Part shown: positions 2,227-61,969 of the stretch, one piece after another | Layout: every line of letters begins with the position of its first letter | How positions within the stretch are numbered: position 1 is the stretch's first letter | DNA from: Chryseobacterium daecheongense | Lineage (GTDB): Bacteria > Bacteroidota > Bacteroidia > Flavobacteriales > Weeksellaceae | Length of the DNA: 64,000 bases | Reading direction: 5' to 3' | Assembly (NCBI GenBank): GCA_027920525.1 | Contig: CP115858.1 | Coordinates: forward strand, 3,472,001-3,536,000 | Translations under genes and position numbers: made by a program | The notes under the pieces: model-generated | What the model saw: the letters and a program-made list of their open reading frames with translations, nothing else | Databases searched by the model: none | Told to the model about the DNA's origin: nothing

Positions 2227-3597
2227 ATGCAACTGTACAACACCTTAAGCGCAGAAGAAAGAGCTCAACTTATTGATGAAGCCGGTAAGGAACGTCTTAC
2301 ATTGTCTTTCTATGCGTATGCCAAAATTGAAGATCCCAAAAAATTTCGCGACGAATTATTTATAGCCTGGAATGCACTTGATGCTTTAGGGCGTATCTAT
2401 GTTGCTCACGAAGGAATCAATGCTCAGATGAGCGTTCCTGCAGATCAGTTTGAGGCTTTCCGCGATACACTGGAGGTGTATGAATTTATGAAAGGAATTC
2501 GTTTGAACGTAGCTGTTGAGCAAGACAATCATTCTTTTTTAAAATTAACAATAAAGGTCAGACATAAAATCGTTGCCGATGGATTAAATGATGATACTTT
2601 TGACGTAACCAATAAAGGGGTTCACTTAAAAGCTCAGGAATTTAATAATATGCTTGAGGATCCTAACACCATTGTGGTTGATTTTAGGAACCATTATGAA
2701 AGTGAAGTCGGTCATTTTGAAGGGGCTATTACACCTGATGTGGAAAACTTCAGAGAAAGCTTACCGATTATCAACGAGCAATTACAGGATTTTAAAGAAG
2801 ACAAAAACCTGTTGATGTATTGTACCGGCGGGATCCGTTGTGAAAAAGCCAGTGCTTATTTTAAACATCAGGGCTTTAAAAACGTGTTCCAGCTAGAAGG
2901 TGGAATTATTGAATATACCCGCCAGATAAAAGAGGAAGGAATACAAAGTAAATTCATCGGTAAGAACTTTGTATTTGACCACCGTTTAGGCGAAAGAATT
3001 ACAGATGATATCATTTCACAGTGCCACCAGTGTGGAAAGCCTTGTGACAATCATACCAATTGTTCTAATGATGCGTGTCATCTACTCTTTATCCAATGTG
3101 ATGAATGTAAAGCGGCAATGGAAAACTGCTGCTCTACAGAGTGTTTGGATATCATACATTTGCCAATGGAAGAACAGGTGAAATTAAGGAAAGGATTACA
3201 GGTAGGAAACAAGGTTTTCAGAAAAGGCAAATCCGATGCTTTGAAATTTAAGAATTCCGGTGATTTACCTGCTAAACCTTTAGCAAAAGCCGAAACCAAA
3301 GATATCCGCAAAAAAATAGCGGTTAAAAAAGTATTGATTGGGAAAGCAGAACATTATTATTCAAAATCAAAGATCGGACAATTCCTGATTGAAAATAAAG
3401 AACTTACCGTGGGTGACAAAGTATTGATTTCAGGGCCCACAACAGGTGAAAAGGAATTGACCATTACTGAGATTTATGTGAATGGAAGCTCAAGTGAAAC
3501 GGCAAAAAAAGGAGATCAGATTACTTTTGAAATTCCTTTTAGAATTCGTTTGTCAGATAAATTATATAAGGTCGGACAACCTTCGGAAGGAGTATAA
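2227..3597 (+). CDS. trhO: TrhO-like rhodanese tRNA hydroxylase with extra C-terminal barrel domain
   Basis: TrhO (YceA) makes 5-hydroxyuridine at tRNA position 34 using O2. The acylphosphatase-like N-terminus, central rhodanese domain with the active-loop Cys in CTGGIRCEKASAY, and the Cys-rich segment CHQCGKPCDNHTNC with further CC pairs all match the family. E. coli TrhO is about 350 aa; this one is 456. The last roughly 95 residues (KVLIGKAEHYY to DKLYKVG) have a GD..L..GP...E pattern that resembles the C-terminal barrel of U32 peptidases such as TrhP. The MTHFS gene follows after 17 nt, so the two are probably co-transcribed. Confidence 0.88.
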   Translation: MQLYNTLSAEERAQLIDEAGKERLTLSFYAYAKIEDPKKFRDELFIAWNALDALGRIYVAHEGINAQMSVPADQFEAFRDTLEVYEFMKGIRLNVAVEQDNHSFLKLTIKVRHKIVADGLNDDTFDVTNKGVHLKAQEFNNMLEDPNTIVVDFRNHYESEVGHFEGAITPDVENFRESLPIINEQLQDFKEDKNLLMYCTGGIRCEKASAYFKHQGFKNVFQLEGGIIEYTRQIKEEGIQSKFIGKNFVFDHRLGERITDDIISQCHQCGKPCDNHTNCSNDACHLLFIQCDECKAAMENCCSTECLDIIHLPMEEQVKLRKGLQVGNKVFRKGKSDALKFKNSGDLPAKPLAKAETKDIRKKIAVKKVLIGKAEHYYSKSKIGQFLIENKELTVGDKVLISGPTTGEKELTITEIYVNGSSSETAKKGDQITFEIPFRIRLSDKLYKVGQPSEGV

Positions 3598-55825: not shown

Positions 55826-55893
55826 GATTGATAAAGTTTAATATGAAGTCTTTAATTTTATTCTTTATTTTTACAAAAATCATGCCTTGCCCT

Positions 55894-57759
55894 ATGAAAT
55901 CTCACTATAAATATTTTCTTCTGATCATTCTGATTATGTCCTTTAATTCAGTGTTTTCTCAAATAAAAAGAAATCAATTTGAAATTAAAGACGGTCATTT
56001 TTTTTTGAATGAAAAAGAGTTTATTATCCATTCGGGTGAACTTCATTATCCTAGAGTGCCATCAGAGTACTGGAAACACCGTCTTCAGATGATGAAAGCA
56101 ATGGGGCTAAACACGGTTACTACCTATGTATTTTGGAATTATCATGAAGAAGCTCCTGGAAAGTGGAATTTCTCTGGAGAAAAAGATCTGAAAAAATTTA
56201 TAAAAACAGCACAGGAAGTTGGATTGTATGTGATTATACGTCCTGGACCTTACGTGTGTGCAGAGTGGGAATTTGGAGGATATCCATGGTGGTTGCAAAA
56301 GGATAAAAATTTAGAAATAAGGACCTATAACCAGCCCTTTTTGAAAGAGTGCGAAAAATATATTAATCAACTGGCAAAGCAGATCATTCCTTTGCAGATC
56401 AATAATGGCGGACCTGTTATAATGGTTCAGGCAGAAAATGAGTTTGGCTCCTATGTTGCCCAAAGAAAAGACATACCATTGGAGCAGCATCGAAGATACA
56501 GCCATGAAATTAAAAATATGTTGATTAAATCGGGCATTTCTGTCCCATTCTTTACCTCGGACGGAAGCTCCCTTTTTGAGGGCGGAGCGATAGAAGGTGC
56601 ATTACCGACGGCCAACGGGGAAGATAATATTGAGACCCTTAAAGAGAAAGTGAATGCATATAACGGAAATAAAGGACCGTATATGGTAGCTGAATATTAT
56701 CCGGGATGGCTTGACCACTGGGCCGAACCTTTTGTGAAAGTTCCTGTAGAAGATGTAGTAAAACAAACTGAGTTATACATCAAGAATGGAGTGTCATTTA
56801 ATTATTATATGATTCATGGAGGAACCAATTTCGGATTTACCAGTGGTGCTAATTATGATAAGAACCACGACATTCAACCGGATATTACAAGCTATGATTA
56901 TGACGCTCCGATAAGCGAAGCAGGATGGGAAACTCCAAAGTATACAGCACTACGTACTATATTTCAAAAACTGAATCCAAAAAAGCTTCCTGAAGTACCC
57001 GCCAGGGAAAGGGTTATTACATTCTCACATGTGAAATTTTCTAAAACTCTTTCTATTTTTGATTTAGTACAGGGACAGAAATTTATATCAGCAGAAAGAC
57101 CCTATACATTTGAAGAACTGAATCAAGGTAACGGCTACGTTCTTTACTGGATAAAATTTGATAAGGATCATAAAGGGAAACTTGAAATAAAAGGGTTGAG
57201 AGATTATGCAAATATTTATATTGATAAGGTTTGGAAAGGTGAATTGAACAGATACTATAAAAAATATGATCTTGATATCTCAATCAAAGCCGGGGAGACT
57301 TTGGATATCCTTGTTGAAAATATGGGACGGATCAATTACGGAGCTGAAATTGTACATAACCTTAAGGGAATAATAAGTCCTGTTGAAATCAATGGAGATC
57401 CTGTTAAAGGTCTATGGAAAATGTATTCGCTTCCTTTTGATAAGATACCTGAACTAAAAAATAAGTCGAAAGATATTCCTGAAAGGAGCCCTGTAATAAA
57501 AGAAGCAAAATTTCAACTCAAAGAAAAAGGAGATACTTTTCTTGATATGAGAAATTTCGGAAAAGGAATTGTGTTTGTGAATGGAAAAAATGTAGGGAGA
57601 TACTGGAGCAAGGTAGGTCCCCAGCTTACATTGTATGTTCCTGGTGTATGGTTGAAAAAAGGAGAAAACACTATTCAGGTTTTTGAGCAGATTAATGATA
57701 AAAACATATCAGAAATTAACAGTGTAAGTACACCAGTTCTAGATGAATTGATTAAATAA
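55894..57759 (+). CDS. GH35 beta-galactosidase, secreted
   Basis: 622 aa from the ATG giving MKSHYKYFLL; in-frame upstream starts at 55828 and 55843 would place a second hydrophobic run before this signal peptide (ending SVFSQ). The TIM barrel has FIIHSGELHYPRVPSEYW, the acid/base Glu183 in QAENEFGSY, and the nucleophile in MVAEYYPGWLDHW. C-terminal jelly-roll domains (about 400-620; KNVGRYW) complete it. GH35 enzymes release beta-linked galactose from glycans. No SusC/D pair or other glycoside hydrolase is nearby. Confidence 0.92.
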   Translation: MKSHYKYFLLIILIMSFNSVFSQIKRNQFEIKDGHFFLNEKEFIIHSGELHYPRVPSEYWKHRLQMMKAMGLNTVTTYVFWNYHEEAPGKWNFSGEKDLKKFIKTAQEVGLYVIIRPGPYVCAEWEFGGYPWWLQKDKNLEIRTYNQPFLKECEKYINQLAKQIIPLQINNGGPVIMVQAENEFGSYVAQRKDIPLEQHRRYSHEIKNMLIKSGISVPFFTSDGSSLFEGGAIEGALPTANGEDNIETLKEKVNAYNGNKGPYMVAEYYPGWLDHWAEPFVKVPVEDVVKQTELYIKNGVSFNYYMIHGGTNFGFTSGANYDKNHDIQPDITSYDYDAPISEAGWETPKYTALRTIFQKLNPKKLPEVPARERVITFSHVKFSKTLSIFDLVQGQKFISAERPYTFEELNQGNGYVLYWIKFDKDHKGKLEIKGLRDYANIYIDKVWKGELNRYYKKYDLDISIKAGETLDILVENMGRINYGAEIVHNLKGIISPVEINGDPVKGLWKMYSLPFDKIPELKNKSKDIPERSPVIKEAKFQLKEKGDTFLDMRNFGKGIVFVNGKNVGRYWSKVGPQLTLYVPGVWLKKGENTIQVFEQINDKNISEINSVSTPVLDELIK

Positions 57760-57867: not shown

Positions 57868-57915
57868 ATTACACAAAAGTGTAATTGATTCTGCTTTGTT
57901 TTCTGTAGATATTTG
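57868..57915 (+). promoter_or_regulatory. Palindromic operator and promoter of the NarL-type operon
   Basis: A perfect 7-4-7 palindrome, ATTACAC-AAAA-GTGTAAT (57868-57885), runs into TTG (57885-57887), a 20-nt spacer and GATATTTG (57908-57915). The same arrangement recurs at 60774-60821. The site covers the -33 region, so the product of the first gene may regulate itself. Confidence 0.65.
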
Positions 57916-57934
57916 TCTCAAATAAGTAAAGGAC

Positions 57935-58567
57935 ATGACCATTTCAATAGCCATAGTAGAAGATGAAAAAAACTACAACAATGCGTTGAAGAAGGTCATC
58001 AATTATCAGGCTGATATGAAAGTCATTGCCCAGTTCTTTGACGGCAACGATGCACTGCATAATTTACCTCTTATTTCTCCGGACGTTGTGATGATGGATA
58101 TTCAACTTCAGGATATGCTTGGAATTGAAATCATTGAAAAAGTACGGAAAGATATGCCCGATACCCAGTTTATCATGTGTACAAGCTTCGAAGATGATGA
58201 AAAGATCTTTAATTCTCTAAAAGCAGGAGCAATGGGATATCTCATCAAAGGAGAAAGCATGGACAAAATTCTCGCCTCTATTCGTGATGTATACAATGGA
58301 GGTGCACCGATGAGCTTTTCTATAGCACGAAGGGTGCTAAATCATTTTGAAAAAAAGACAACCGATGTAAAAGAATTTGATGAATTGACGCATCGGGAAA
58401 AAGAAATTCTTGAACTACTTTCACAAGGCTTGTTGTATAAAGAAATTGCAGATCAAAAATGCATAAGCATGGATACGGTAAAAAAGCATGTTGGAAATAT
58501 CTATCGAAAATTGCATGTAAGCAATAAAGTAGAAGCTATCAATAAATTTAACCACTTTAAAAACTAA
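57935..58567 (+). CDS. NarL/FixJ-family response regulator
   Basis: 210 aa. The receiver has EDEKNY, the phospho-acceptor in VVMMDIQLQD and the Lys in YLIKGES. The LuxR-type HTH has LTHREKEILELLSQG and MDTVKKHVGNIYRKL. It is the first gene of a unit with a 7-TM protein and a kinase, starting about 14 nt after the inferred transcription start. The palindrome at its own promoter and at 60774 is the probable target. Confidence 0.92.
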   Translation: MTISIAIVEDEKNYNNALKKVINYQADMKVIAQFFDGNDALHNLPLISPDVVMMDIQLQDMLGIEIIEKVRKDMPDTQFIMCTSFEDDEKIFNSLKAGAMGYLIKGESMDKILASIRDVYNGGAPMSFSIARRVLNHFEKKTTDVKEFDELTHREKEILELLSQGLLYKEIADQKCISMDTVKKHVGNIYRKLHVSNKVEAINKFNHFKN

Positions 58568-58573
58568 AAAACC

Positions 58574-59329
58574 ATGAGAAACTTAGAGAATGAAAGCACA
58601 GACTGTGCTGAAAAAAAATTGGACTTAATAAGAGATATTTTACAATTAGATTGCGAGGTAATCAATGATTATTCTACACTGAGTCCACTTGTGAACTTGA
58701 AACTTTCAGCAGAACAAACCGGATGTATGAACGAGGGAGCAAATAGAATACTGAAGGAAACTCTTGAAGACTTTAAAATTGAAACCGGATCTTTCAAAAA
58801 CCTTCCCATAAAATATAAATATATACACTTTATTTTTGTGGATAAAACCTCTTTGATGAGATTCCCTACTATTCAACCGGGAAGTCATAAGCATAATTTA
58901 TACTATATAATTGTTGTGTGTGATCATGAAGATCTGAATGTTTTTGATTTTATCACTTATGATGCTTATTTAGTAGATAGTGCCGGAATGGCTAAAACAA
59001 TAGAACTGCCAAATGAAATTTATGCTGAAATGAGAAAAGAGTTTTTGGGAGGAGTAGGAAAGGCTATTAGAGAAAACTCTACGTACAATGCAATTACAGA
59101 ATATATATCTTTTTCTAATGTTATGTTTGAAACCTTTAGAAATGATTTGTCCGGAAACTTTAAAGAGGTGAATGTGAGGTTAATTGCAATACATAAAAAT
59201 TGTGATATTAACAGTCAAAATGTTGCAGTATCAAGAGTTTTAAATGATAATAAAAAACAAAGCAGATTATCATTAGCATTTCAAAAGGAAGATCAAGGAT
59301 TCTATGATATAGGTAATATGCAACCATAA
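58574..59329 (+). CDS. Hypothetical cytoplasmic protein
   Basis: 251 aa, no signal peptide or TM. Mixed alpha/beta, with several Cys and His scattered (CEVINDYS, PGSHKHNLYYIIVVCDHED, LIAIHKNCDINSQN). No family recognised. It lies 6 nt after the regulator gene, and its stop overlaps the 7-TM gene's start by one base, so it belongs to the signalling operon. Confidence 0.7.
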   Translation: MRNLENESTDCAEKKLDLIRDILQLDCEVINDYSTLSPLVNLKLSAEQTGCMNEGANRILKETLEDFKIETGSFKNLPIKYKYIHFIFVDKTSLMRFPTIQPGSHKHNLYYIIVVCDHEDLNVFDFITYDAYLVDSAGMAKTIELPNEIYAEMRKEFLGGVGKAIRENSTYNAITEYISFSNVMFETFRNDLSGNFKEVNVRLIAIHKNCDINSQNVAVSRVLNDNKKQSRLSLAFQKEDQGFYDIGNMQP

Positions 59330-59982
59330 TGTACTCTGATTTCCAATTAGCATATTTGATTATTCTTTTTCTTGTTGCTTCTTTTTCGTTGATCCTAAGT
59401 ATAAGGAATGGAAAGAAGCAACAGGAATTTTTGTGTCTCTACCTCGGATTGACTTTTATTCTTGAATTTTTAATGTACATTGTCCAGATATATTTTAAGA
59501 CCACCGCGAACTTTGGTTTCTTATACAATGCTTATATTCTATTTTGTACATTATTTTTCCTCATTTATTTTAATCGGGGACAGGATATCGTCCTGGTTAA
59601 AATCAATAATGTAATTTTCTTTCTTTTTCTCATTATCTATCTTGGTTTCATTTTAAAAAATTATAAAGAAGTCAATCAGACAATAGGTATTGCTTTTTCG
59701 TTAGTATACATACTTTATAGTCTAATTTGGTTCTATGGAAAATTAAAACGTCCAAATACCAGGAGCATCATGCAGGATCCAAAGTTCTGGATTTCCTGTG
59801 GGCTATTATTTTGGGGAGTATTTTTTATTTTAAGAATTATACCGCGGTACGTTTTTGATAAAATTGATGATAAAGTATTAATTGCGTCACAGTCATTTTT
59901 TTTTATTGTTAATATCATTTTTTATTTCCTTTTTTTAATTTCTTTATCCAAATACACAAAAAAACATAATGACTTCTCTTAA
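59329..59982 (+). CDS. 7-TM membrane protein, putative sensor
   Basis: 217 aa made almost wholly of seven hydrophobic helices with short loops; a short basic tail (SKYTKKHNDFS). Such proteins often sit in signalling operons of Bacteroidota. The kinase gene downstream overlaps its 3' end by 14 nt and lacks a sensor domain, so this protein is a plausible sensing partner. Confidence 0.7.
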   Translation: MYSDFQLAYLIILFLVASFSLILSIRNGKKQQEFLCLYLGLTFILEFLMYIVQIYFKTTANFGFLYNAYILFCTLFFLIYFNRGQDIVLVKINNVIFFLFLIIYLGFILKNYKEVNQTIGIAFSLVYILYSLIWFYGKLKRPNTRSIMQDPKFWISCGLLFWGVFFILRIIPRYVFDKIDDKVLIASQSFFFIVNIIFYFLFLISLSKYTKKHNDFS

Positions 59983-60754
59983 TGAATTAAAATTAACCTA
60001 TGCAATCATTACAGTTGTTATGCTGTTCTTTGTGGTATTTATCATCTTTGTAGTATTAATGTACAATAGGAAGCAGCTTTTGTTTGTAAAAGAAAAACAA
60101 CTTAAAGAAGCAGAATACCAAAATCAATTGTTACAAAAAGAGCTCGAAAAACAAAAACTGATTGAGCAGGAGCGGGAACGGATCTCACATGATATGCACG
60201 ATGATCTGGGAGCAGGAATTTCAGCTCTTAAGCTTCAGGCAGAATTTTTAAAACAAAAAGCAGAAAATAGTGATCTAACAAATGATATTGACGAGCTGCT
60301 AAAAACATCTGAAGAAATGAATATTTCGATGAGGGAAATGCTTTGGAATTTGAATACAGGAAACGATACGATTGGAAGCTTTACAAGTTACTCAAAAATG
60401 TATACTGAAAGCTTCCTGAAAAAAACATCCATCAATTTTATTGTGACAGATCGGGGGATCATTCACAATATGCCGGTTTCCGCTGAAATTAGAAGAAATA
60501 TGTTTTTGTGCTTAAAAGAATCATTGAATAATGCCTATAAACATAGCAAGGCAAATAAAATATCAATTTCGTTTTCACAAATGGATCGTGAATTTAGTAT
60601 GGAGATTTCGGATGATGGAATAGGGATGATTGAAGGAAAAAATGAAGGGAATGGTCTTCGAAATATGAAACGCAGGATGAAGGAACTAAATGGAGAATTT
60701 GAAATTGTTTCCAAAGAAGATGGAACTGCTTTGATTTTTACAATAGTGATATAA
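59969..60754 (+). CDS. NarL-type sensor histidine kinase with one TM
   Basis: 261 aa. One N-terminal TM helix (about 10-32), a coiled coil of about 40 residues, the HisKA_3 phospho-His in RERISHDMHDDLGAGI, and a C-terminal HATPase (LKESLNNAYKHSKA, DDGIGM, GNGLRNMKRRM). No input domain is seen, so the neighbouring 7-TM protein may act in trans. It is the kinase partner of the regulator at 57935. Confidence 0.92.
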   Translation: MTSLNELKLTYAIITVVMLFFVVFIIFVVLMYNRKQLLFVKEKQLKEAEYQNQLLQKELEKQKLIEQERERISHDMHDDLGAGISALKLQAEFLKQKAENSDLTNDIDELLKTSEEMNISMREMLWNLNTGNDTIGSFTSYSKMYTESFLKKTSINFIVTDRGIIHNMPVSAEIRRNMFLCLKESLNNAYKHSKANKISISFSQMDREFSMEISDDGIGMIEGKNEGNGLRNMKRRMKELNGEFEIVSKEDGTALIFTIVI

Positions 60755-60773
60755 CCATCAGACTAATTGCATA

Positions 60774-60821
60774 ATAACCCTTTTGTGTAATTGACTTTAA
60801 TCTCTTTTAGTGAGAAATTTG
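60774..60821 (+). promoter_or_regulatory. Operator and promoter of the downstream small-protein unit
   Basis: ATAACCC-TTTT-GTGTAAT (60774-60791) has the same 7-4-7 layout as the upstream site, with 5 of 7 left-arm bases in common and an identical right arm plus TGA. TTG (60791-60793), a 20-nt spacer and GAAATTTG (60814-60821) follow in the same register. Confidence 0.62.
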
Positions 60822-60841
60822 ATAGAGTAAAATTCACCATC

Positions 60842-61168
60842 ATGAAAACTACAATTAACAACAGTTTTGAAGATTTCAAACAGACACTAAGCAACAACAA
60901 TAAACTACAGCAGGAATTTAGGGATAATCCTATTCAGGCTGTCAATAGTATTGAAGTAAAAAATCCCAAAGAAACCGATACCTGGATATATAGAATTATC
61001 GTCCTGATGTTTGGGCTTGCGATTATTGGTATCATAACAGGATTGATTATATTATCCTTGCACAAGGAAATTACTTTAAACGAGCAGTTAATTACCATTT
61101 TTACTGCTATTTCATCAGGAGCGATTGGAGCCCTGGCAGGACTTTTAGCTCCTTCACCTAACAAATAA
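60842..61168 (+). CDS. Small two-TM membrane protein
   Basis: 108 aa from the ATG giving MKTTINN. The N-terminal 45 residues are helical and polar (EDFKQTLSNNNKLQQEFRDN) and recall a Nif11-like leader only loosely. Two TM helices follow (IYRIIVLMFGLAIIGIITGL, and a Gly/Ala-rich second helix, SGAIGALAGLL), and a Pro/Ser tail ends it. No family is recognised. It is the first gene of the second unit carrying the NarL-type site. Confidence 0.68.
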   Translation: MKTTINNSFEDFKQTLSNNNKLQQEFRDNPIQAVNSIEVKNPKETDTWIYRIIVLMFGLAIIGIITGLIILSLHKEITLNEQLITIFTAISSGAIGALAGLLAPSPNK

Positions 61169-61184
61169 CCTAAAAACTATAATC

Positions 61185-61388
61185 ATGACTAAAATTATCA
61201 CAAACTACCTATTAGATTGGAACATTAAATCCAGAAGCGGAAAGATCATCTTAAAGTTTAAAGATGCAGGATCTGAAGAAATCATGGAGGATTTAGATTA
61301 CGAAACTTTCAGTGCATTAGCACATGTACTTGGAAAAGGCAAAGCCAAATATGACCCAACTGATAACTCAATTTATAATGTAATGTGA
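61185..61388 (+). CDS. Small hypothetical protein
   Basis: 67 aa, no signal peptide. A beta-hairpin-like start (NYLLDWNIKSRSGKIILKF) is followed by an acidic stretch (GSEEIMEDLDYETFSALAHV) and a Lys-rich end. Unknown. Its stop overlaps the next ATG (TGATG), so the three genes are one transcript. Confidence 0.65.
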   Translation: MTKIITNYLLDWNIKSRSGKIILKFKDAGSEEIMEDLDYETFSALAHVLGKGKAKYDPTDNSIYNVM

Positions 61389-61969
61389 TGAAAAATATAT
61401 TTTTAACATTGGGAACAGTTCTTTTGTTCACTTCTTGCAGTAACCTGCATAAGGCAACATTGGAAGAACTGAAAAGTACAACCTCAAACTATCAGATGTC
61501 GTATGATGCCATGCGAAGAGGAGCCATAGTAAGCATCAAACCAGATGGGAAAATCAACAAAATATTATCGGAGGTGCAACCAGATGCTGCCATTGCCAGA
61601 ACCACAGATATAACAAGTACGCTCATGGGTAAGCTGAAGTCGGGGGATAGTGTTTCTGCTGAACAAATGACTAAAATTACAGAAAGCCTTTCCAGGCTTG
61701 GTGAAAGGACTGCTCCAGTTAATATGCTTAGAGATGCATTATACAGATTGGAAGAACATTGTATTAATTTTGAAGAGCAATGCAAAGGAGAGCTCTATTG
61801 GACTAGTTTTAATAATATTGTTAATAATATAACTGAACTTCAGGGCAAAATTTCAGAAACGGCAAAAGAGGAAGCCAATAAAGCAAAAGCCCAGGCTGAA
61901 GAAGAAAAAGCTAAAACTTTAAGAACATTAACGCCGGAAGAACGAAAAAAATATGATTTGACACCGTGA
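61388..61969 (+). CDS. Lipoprotein with C-terminal coiled coil
   Basis: 193 aa from the ATG at 61388 (the GTG at 61385 is unlikely). Lipobox (LFTSCS), a mixed central part with two Cys (EEHCINFEEQC), and a strongly charged helical end (ANKAKAQAEEEKAKTLRTL). No family recognised. It is the last gene of the regulated unit; a terminator follows. Confidence 0.72.
   Translation: MKNIFLTLGTVLLFTSCSNLHKATLEELKSTTSNYQMSYDAMRRGAIVSIKPDGKINKILSEVQPDAAIARTTDITSTLMGKLKSGDSVSAEQMTKITESLSRLGERTAPVNMLRDALYRLEEHCINFEEQCKGELYWTSFNNIVNNITELQGKISETAKEEANKAKAQAEEEKAKTLRTLTPEERKKYDLTP

Follow-up and report, generated by a model that had tools for sequence, protein, structure and literature searches.

A palindrome shared by two promoters, very probably the operator of a NarL-type regulator, beside a hypervariable candidate sensor block in Chryseobacterium

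Two-component systems of the NarL/FixJ type, such as NarXL, UhpAB and LiaSR, combine a receiver and GerE regulator with a HisKA_3 kinase, and their regulators usually have a palindromic site that overlaps the -35 region. The locus described here lies on contig CP115858.1 of Chryseobacterium daecheongense (assembly GCA_027920525.1), within a stretch of 64,000 nucleotides (nt; positions 3,472,001 to 3,536,000, forward strand) referred to below as the window. It comprises a four-gene operon, encoding a NarL/FixJ-type response regulator, a hypervariable protein (gene 2), a seven-helix membrane protein and a histidine kinase, which is flanked by two promoters bearing one palindrome. This palindrome is very probably the operator through which the regulator would control both its own operon and a neighbouring three-gene ‘cargo’ unit. 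As in the known systems, the receiver and the GerE helix-turn-helix (HTH) domain both score above the Pfam cut-off, and a kinase with HisKA_3 and HATPase domains is encoded in the same operon. The differences are that there is no close equivalog (all NCBIfam matches of the regulator and kinase fall below the curated cut-off), that the sensor is split into a separate seven-helix protein and a kinase in which Pfam found no sensor domain, and that a hypervariable extra gene is present together with a Bacteroidota -7/-33 promoter carrying a conserved deviant -7 box.

A second comparison is with loci that encode matched signalling pairs. In agr (AgrBDCA) of Staphylococcus, a polymorphic, matched ligand–receptor block under positive feedback stands beside conserved kinase and regulator parts, much as may be the case at the present locus; here, in contrast, no AgrB-like protease was found and there is no small thiolactone precursor. 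In ComQXPA of Bacillus, as here, the genes for a variable element, a membrane sensor and a regulator are adjacent. The portion of PMC4008528 that treats conservation gives the order ComA > ComP > ComQ > ComX, and the order here (regulator > kinase > candidate receptor > gene 2) is alike. In the same portion the precursor is given as 52–73 residues, whereas gene 2 encodes 194–317 residues across loci, and ComX is described as most variable at its C-terminus, whereas the gene 2 tail is the best-conserved part of the protein within each class. Moreover, the present operon has no processing enzyme (no further gene appears in the maps of the 80 related loci defined below), its sensor protein is separate, its host is Gram-negative and its cargo is exchanged too. 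A hypervariable element and a receptor candidate do lie beside a conserved regulator, with alleles inherited as matched pairs, as in pherotype loci, but a small peptide precursor with a dedicated processing enzyme is lacking. Given the size of gene 2, the per-class conservation of its tail and the missing processing enzyme, the locus is not filed as a member of ComQXPA. Peptide signals are assigned to Gram-positive bacteria in the relevant part of one review (PMC8895600). Among the papers listed by a search for Chryseobacterium regulators and operators there was nothing on this locus, and among those listed by the searches of open-licence papers there was no matched-allele signalling system for Bacteroidota.

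Two promoters in identical register

The original prediction held that one palindromic operator occurs at two promoters in identical register, and direct reading of the sequence bore this out: at both, the palindrome is followed by TTG, 20 nt and GAnnTTTG (Table 1), with the regulator ATG (57935) downstream of site 1 and the next ATG (60842) downstream of site 2. Operator 1 is a perfect 7-4-7 palindrome, and the left half of operator 2 contains two mismatches. This TTG-N20-box arrangement places the TTG at the right distance to be the -33 TTG element of Bacteroidota primary-sigma promoters. The flavobacterial primary-sigma -7 box, in the section of PMC9723704 that describes it for Flavobacterium psychrophilum, is TAnnTTTG at -12 to -5. 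Both sites share the TTTG of this box and the TTG at the -33 distance but differ in its first base; as GAnnTTTG fails the consensus, both promoters are treated as an activated variant. If the -7 box is taken as -12 to -5, the operator centres are expected at approximately -43.5, with leaders of 15 and 16 nt.

In the whole genome (4.86 Mb) only two places match the pattern GTGTAATTGA-N19-GANNTTTG perfectly; both are here, 2.9 kb apart, flanking the operon. When up to two mismatches are allowed the whole genome gives 8 matches, versus 4 for the reversed control. The bare 10-mer GTGTAATTGA occurs at chance level within the window (6 found with at most one mismatch, 6.17 expected), and the short pattern at up to two mismatches has a high background, matching in 98/98 genomes, with the reversed control also matching in most. 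The co-occurrence of the two sites, their full pattern and their conservation are beyond chance.

Table 1. Positions of promoter elements and genes of the locus within the window
Feature	Position	Strand	Basis or remark
Operator 1, ATTACAC-N4-GTGTAAT (spacer AAAA)	57868..57885	+	Upstream of regulator; sequence reading
TTG, -33-type element, overlapping edge of operator 1	57885..57887	+	Sequence reading
GATATTTG, deviant -7 box (consensus TAnnTTTG)	57908..57915	+	Expected transcription start near 57920 (-12 to -5 placement)
NarL/FixJ-type response regulator, 210 residues	57935..58567	+	Receiver PF00072 5.2e-22; GerE HTH PF00196 4.1e-17
Gene 2, hypervariable protein, 251 residues, candidate ligand or co-sensor	58574..59329	+	No Pfam family at cut-off
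C-terminal tail of gene 2, YDIGNMQP (class IGNMQP)	59303..59326	+	
Seven-helix membrane protein c3, 217 residues, candidate receptor	59329..59982	+	
Histidine kinase, 261 residues, hydrophobic N-terminal segment	59969..60754	+	HisKA_3 PF07730 5.5e-12; HATPase PF02518 1.8e-8
Operator 2, ATAACCC-N4-GTGTAAT (spacer TTTT)	60774..60791	+	Sequence reading and conservation with cargo
TTG, -33-type element at operator 2	60791..60793	+	Sequence reading
GAAATTTG, deviant -7 box	60814..60821	+	Expected transcription start near 60826
Cargo gene 1 (c16), 108 residues, hydrophobic segments in C-terminal half	60842..61168	+	No family
Cargo gene 2 (c27), 67 residues	61185..61388	+	
Cargo gene 3 (c26), 193 residues, lipoprotein-like N-terminus	61388..61969	+	

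Conservation with the regulator and the cargo

With the regulator as query, a scan of GTDB genomes gave 108 confirmed related loci. The best 80 of these, all titled Chryseobacterium and at 80–99% identity, amount to 1.17 Mb and were searched on both strands for strict sites, defined as 15–16 of 16 operator positions together with [TG]AnnTTT[GA] at the fixed distance, only T or G being allowed as the first -7 base. All 80 loci have a site no more than 1 kb upstream of the regulator, at -63 to -69 from its ATG in 77 and farther away in L114 (-381), L141 (-386) and L126 (-932, with a 191-residue reading frame between site and regulator). The search returned 132 strict sites: 79 precede the regulator, 52 lie between the kinase gene and eno, and one is elsewhere. 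Simple shuffling of these loci, done three times, returned none. These counts, with the two perfect matches in the genome, agree with the earlier claim that the arrangement is unlikely by chance. The 79 regulator-side promoters give the consensus ATTACaCaAA.GtGTAATTGatTc...ttTgTTTTCTgttGAAATTTG, and the recognition-helix stretch DTVKKHVGNIYRKL is exact in 76/80 regulators.

The second site follows the cargo. In 59/80 loci the kinase–eno interval is at least 601 nt long and contains cargo (one or several reading frames), and in 58 of these a second site stands after the kinase, the threshold being at least 14/16 operator positions within the interval (in L113 and L144, from the kinase to the end of the locus). 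No such site was found in any of the 21 loci without cargo (interval 106–305 nt), where the best match is 13, a relic in L101. On the species tree (75 loci) at least 16 changes in cargo presence are needed, so that the agreement between site 2 and cargo is not a single event. The type of cargo is tied neither to gene 2 nor to the species (40 changes on each of the two trees, 43–44 when shuffled). The test that the original prediction had proposed, conservation of the motif in relatives, therefore came out in its favour at both promoters.

Could the likeness of the two sites reflect a recent local duplication, or chance? The sites are only 2.9 kb apart, but their spacers and left halves differ, the difference is kept over the 80 loci, and sites are retained in diverged genomes and occur unlinked; this explanation is thus extremely improbable. 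As a side observation, the spacers are flipped across the 80 loci, being of AAAN type at the regulator and NTTT type at the cargo, and, the spacer being asymmetric, the two promoters seem to use the site in opposite orientations.

The site also tracks the regulator between genomes. A long pattern with both half-sites (at most three mismatches) was found in 52/60 Chryseobacterium genomes, versus 0/60 for the reversed control. The regulator (E ≤ 1e-80) is likewise present in 52/60, and the same eight genomes lack both (G008, G010, G018, G019, G029, G031, G058 and G059). This bears on another explanation, namely that the conserved block is an alternative sigma promoter of the extracytoplasmic function (ECF) type, with GTGTAATTG as its -35 and GAAMTTTG as its -10 element, and that the response regulator is uninvolved. 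The N20 spacing is indeed fixed, and both elements occur as a conserved variant. However, the block is an 18-bp palindrome, as would suit a dimer, and reaches 17 bp beyond the TTG on the upstream side; it is present or absent together with the NarL regulator gene; the TTTG of the primary -7 box is retained; and among the genes of the operon none was found to encode a sigma factor. An ECF-type promoter is therefore very unlikely.

The first base of the -7 box bears on the sign of regulation. It is G in 131/131 strict sites at both positions, T having been admitted and not found; two sites with C as first base, at the regulator in L144 and at the target in L074, fell outside the strict-site rule. 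Upstream of eno in the same 80 loci, TAAATTTG occurs 78 times. At target sites with 15–16/16 operator positions, TA is present in 0/53 (52 GA, 1 CA), and where the operator has decayed to 14/16 it is present in 4/5. Small as this contrast is, regain of TA at decayed operators fits an activated promoter that recovers a consensus box. The regulator might instead act as a repressor: bound to the palindrome over the -33 element it would obstruct polymerase, so that its own operon would be under negative autoregulation and the cargo would be repressed. The operator does touch the -33 TTG at both promoters, and repression is common among autoregulators. However, a weak G-first box at every strict site, when the region upstream of eno has TA, is what an activated promoter would be expected to show, and TA beside decayed operators is likewise expected under activation, unlike under repression. 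Repression is accordingly considered unlikely, and the suggestion in the original prediction that GAnnTTTG suits activator dependence appears to hold.

Further sites lie elsewhere in chromosomes. Twenty regions around additional, unlinked motif matches in other genomes were read; some sites stand alone, and in two regions (L191 and L202) the place of the site is ambiguous. In five regions a gene downstream of the site is a BLAST relative of a cargo protein from the 80 loci (L189, c66; L190, c118; L193 and L194, c17; L199, c41). Pfam analysis of ten proteins encoded after unlinked sites identified an S8 peptidase (L196), an M23 peptidase with YLATT (L192) and a pYEATS protein (L199). In L185, L186, L187, L188, L195 and L203 an operator of this type stands upstream of a variable gene, which marks a second cargo slot in the chromosome. 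The genes in it are 425, 281, 455, 135 and 338 residues long, or absent (L188), and in L187 the called frame begins inside the site; in 6/6 regions the variable gene, where present, is followed by reverse-strand genes of 334–336 and 328 residues. Operator-like sites were seen in addition at -2922 (L106), -1541 (L137) and -1893 (L141) from the regulator, upstream of a c24 gene (274–284 residues) located between rplQ and c6 or nearby, which is possibly another target slot.

Taken together, the conservation of the sites, their tracking of regulator and cargo and their unlinked occurrences support the claim of the original prediction that the regulator at 57935 governs its own operon and the target unit, and the palindrome is, with high probability, its operator. 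Binding, activation and phosphorylation of the regulator are inferred, as is the signal. In the proposed mechanism, stimulation of the split sensor (seven-helix protein and kinase, with gene 2) would lead the kinase to phosphorylate the regulator. The phosphorylated regulator would bind its own operator, giving positive feedback, and the same operator at the exchangeable neighbouring cargo unit, which would be activated. The operator abuts the -33 element at approximately -43.5, which would be the place of an activator touching RNA polymerase, and the -7 box would be held weak by G in place of the first T.

Several points weigh against this assignment. The 80 loci are mutually related, so that counts from this set are not independent, and the agreement in the 60 genomes is partly trivial because site 1 adjoins the regulator gene. 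Another regulator may use the two sites, and the target unit could be read through from the kinase gene, whose stop codon is 19 nt from operator 2. One locus with cargo (L110) has a best site of 12/16, and 15 of the 20 unlinked regions showed no cargo relative by BLAST. Outside the genus, at 8 of the 19 loci read from other genera of the family, no consensus site (14 or more positions) was found at the regulator: in six (L243, L249–L252 and L254) a different palindrome, such as ATACC-N8-GGTAT, was noted by eye at the same place, and in two (L247 and L248) no palindrome was found there.

A search of 246 genomes from the family, which span 33 genera, detected the regulator (E ≤ 1e-50) in 8 of these genera. 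The other 11 of the 19 loci from non-own genera carry a consensus site (15–16/16) at the regulator (L235–L242 and L244–L246; in L235 the called regulator start seems too early). Two further genes lie inside the operon of L236. In L239, L244, L245 and L252 a single long kinase (577–668 residues) is found and gene 2 and the membrane gene are absent, which is possibly an older, unsplit form. In a genus of another family of the same order, five genomes matched the membrane protein; of these four were read, and all four have the same four-gene operon, a regulator at 63–66% identity and a 16/16 site at -66 or -67, the first -7 base being C. In yet another family (L279), gene 2, membrane protein, kinase and regulator are reordered at 24–28% identity, and no operator site was found. 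Separately, L253 (genome G060, regulator at position 3067) is a locus in decay: the regulator gene is in pieces with stop codons, eno is next to it, gene 2, the membrane protein and the kinase were not found, and the upstream operator is still 16/16.

The gene nearest upstream of the locus (at least 100 residues) is c6 on the opposite strand in 60/80 loci, a GH35 family member (c19) on the same strand in 18/80 and another in 2/80. The opposite-strand neighbour in most loci, together with the sites that stand alone elsewhere in chromosomes, makes it less likely that both sites lie inside longer transcripts, the other refuting outcome named in the original prediction. In the window a GH35 beta-galactosidase gene (55828–57759) stands directly upstream of operator 1; as this family occurs in 18/80 loci, it looks like an insertion.

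The hypervariable sensor block

Variability within the operon is steeply graded. Mean pairwise identity over the 80 loci is 88% for the regulator, 71% for the kinase, 33% for the membrane protein and 17% for gene 2, compared with 98% for rpoA and 94% for eno (78 loci). A kinase of cluster c4 is present in 80/80 loci. Among the matches listed from 5.8 billion proteins the gene 2 product of the window has one relative (99%), and its relatives occur in 6/148 Chryseobacterium genomes, its own included; cargo gene c16 occurs in 50/148. Among the matches listed for the membrane protein of the window there are 30 relatives at 56–98% identity, and its predicted structure has seven helices (predicted local distance difference test, pLDDT, 89.6). 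A gene 2 product of another class (L073) is predicted with a confident fold (pLDDT 87.3) and resembles no clear known fold.

Gene 2 and the membrane protein are swapped between species as a matched block that ends inside the N-terminus of the kinase. When gene 2 families (8 families, labels on 72 of the 75 loci of the species tree) are traced on gene trees, the label changes 43 times on each of the species and regulator trees and 32 times on the kinase tree, but only 8 times on the membrane-protein tree, where the minimum is 7; shuffled labels give a mean of approximately 45, with lowest values of 41 and 42 on the species and regulator trees. In sliding windows (70 rows) the area under the curve (AUC) for same-class pairs is 0.47–0.55 in the regulator, c6 and eno and 0.91 to 0.78 in the membrane protein. 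In the kinase it is 0.73 and 0.66 in the windows starting at 1 and 21 and 0.50–0.59 beyond. What is exchanged is therefore gene 2, the membrane protein and the N-terminal part of the kinase. Such co-inheritance could arise simply because gene 2 and the membrane gene are physically linked; a block boundary within the neighbouring kinase gene speaks, short of proof, for something beyond linkage.

The C-terminal tails of gene 2 are class-specific (YDMGSLYP, YDAGDLKP, YDQGSLEP, DRNGLCPPGC, IGNMQP and others). The 11 classes, drawn up after inspection of the tails, require 10 changes on the membrane-protein tree (70 rows), which is the least possible, so the tails map one-to-one onto membrane-protein clades; the automatic gene 2 cluster labels, with 8 changes against a minimum of 7, agree nearly with these post hoc classes. 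Within the seven classes of at least four members the tail is 75–100% identical, the gene 2 body 31–52% and the membrane protein 55–68%. Beyond Chryseobacterium, similar tails are encoded in other genera as well as in a further family. Two loci both titled Chryseobacterium lathyri (L109 and L111) have different tail classes (NGLCPPGC and FCLKPPGC), which is polymorphism inside one named species. In L088 and L094 a second gene-2-like protein is encoded after the kinase and before operator 2 (+3032 and +3111 from the regulator), possibly a spare allele that is unpaired.

That gene 2 and the membrane protein jointly set specificity is our inference, and two readings of the block compete, both compatible with the operator assignment. 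Tentatively, it may be a pherotype-like self-recognition system in Bacteroidota, in which the gene 2 tail would act as the ligand, or docking key, of a seven-helix receptor that drives the sensorless kinase; matched alleles would be swapped like cassettes, and the regulator would feed back and plug in output cassettes at several slots. A signal-like hydrophobic N-terminus, mostly of lipoprotein type, is found in only 18/75 gene 2 proteins and in none of the rest, that of the window included, which is a difficulty for a simple export model. The block might instead be an arms-race sensor of foreign agents such as phage or competitor products, with the cargo as a defence or stress output and no self-made signal, which is likewise possible rather than probable. 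The extreme divergence of gene 2 and its exchange between species point that way, as do the trypsin-like, YLATT and pYEATS cargo at the locus and the S8, M23, YLATT and pYEATS genes at unlinked sites. However, a short tail conserved per class and fixed to a membrane-protein clade is expected of a self-made, matched pair, and PADLOC, run on ten proteins (seven cargo proteins of other loci and three from the window), returned only weak trypsin-type and marginal matches.

Significance of the locus

Overall, the locus provides an operator that is readable from sequence alone and that brings with it a built-in test for activator-dependent -7 boxes. Its three parts evolve independently: a regulator that is conserved along with its probable operator, a sensor block that is hypervariable but matched, and output genes that can be exchanged. 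Should the block prove to be a ligand–receptor pair, this would be matched-allele signalling in a phylum for which no such system was among the open-licence papers listed by the searches, and the operator would then be a ready reporter for finding the signal.

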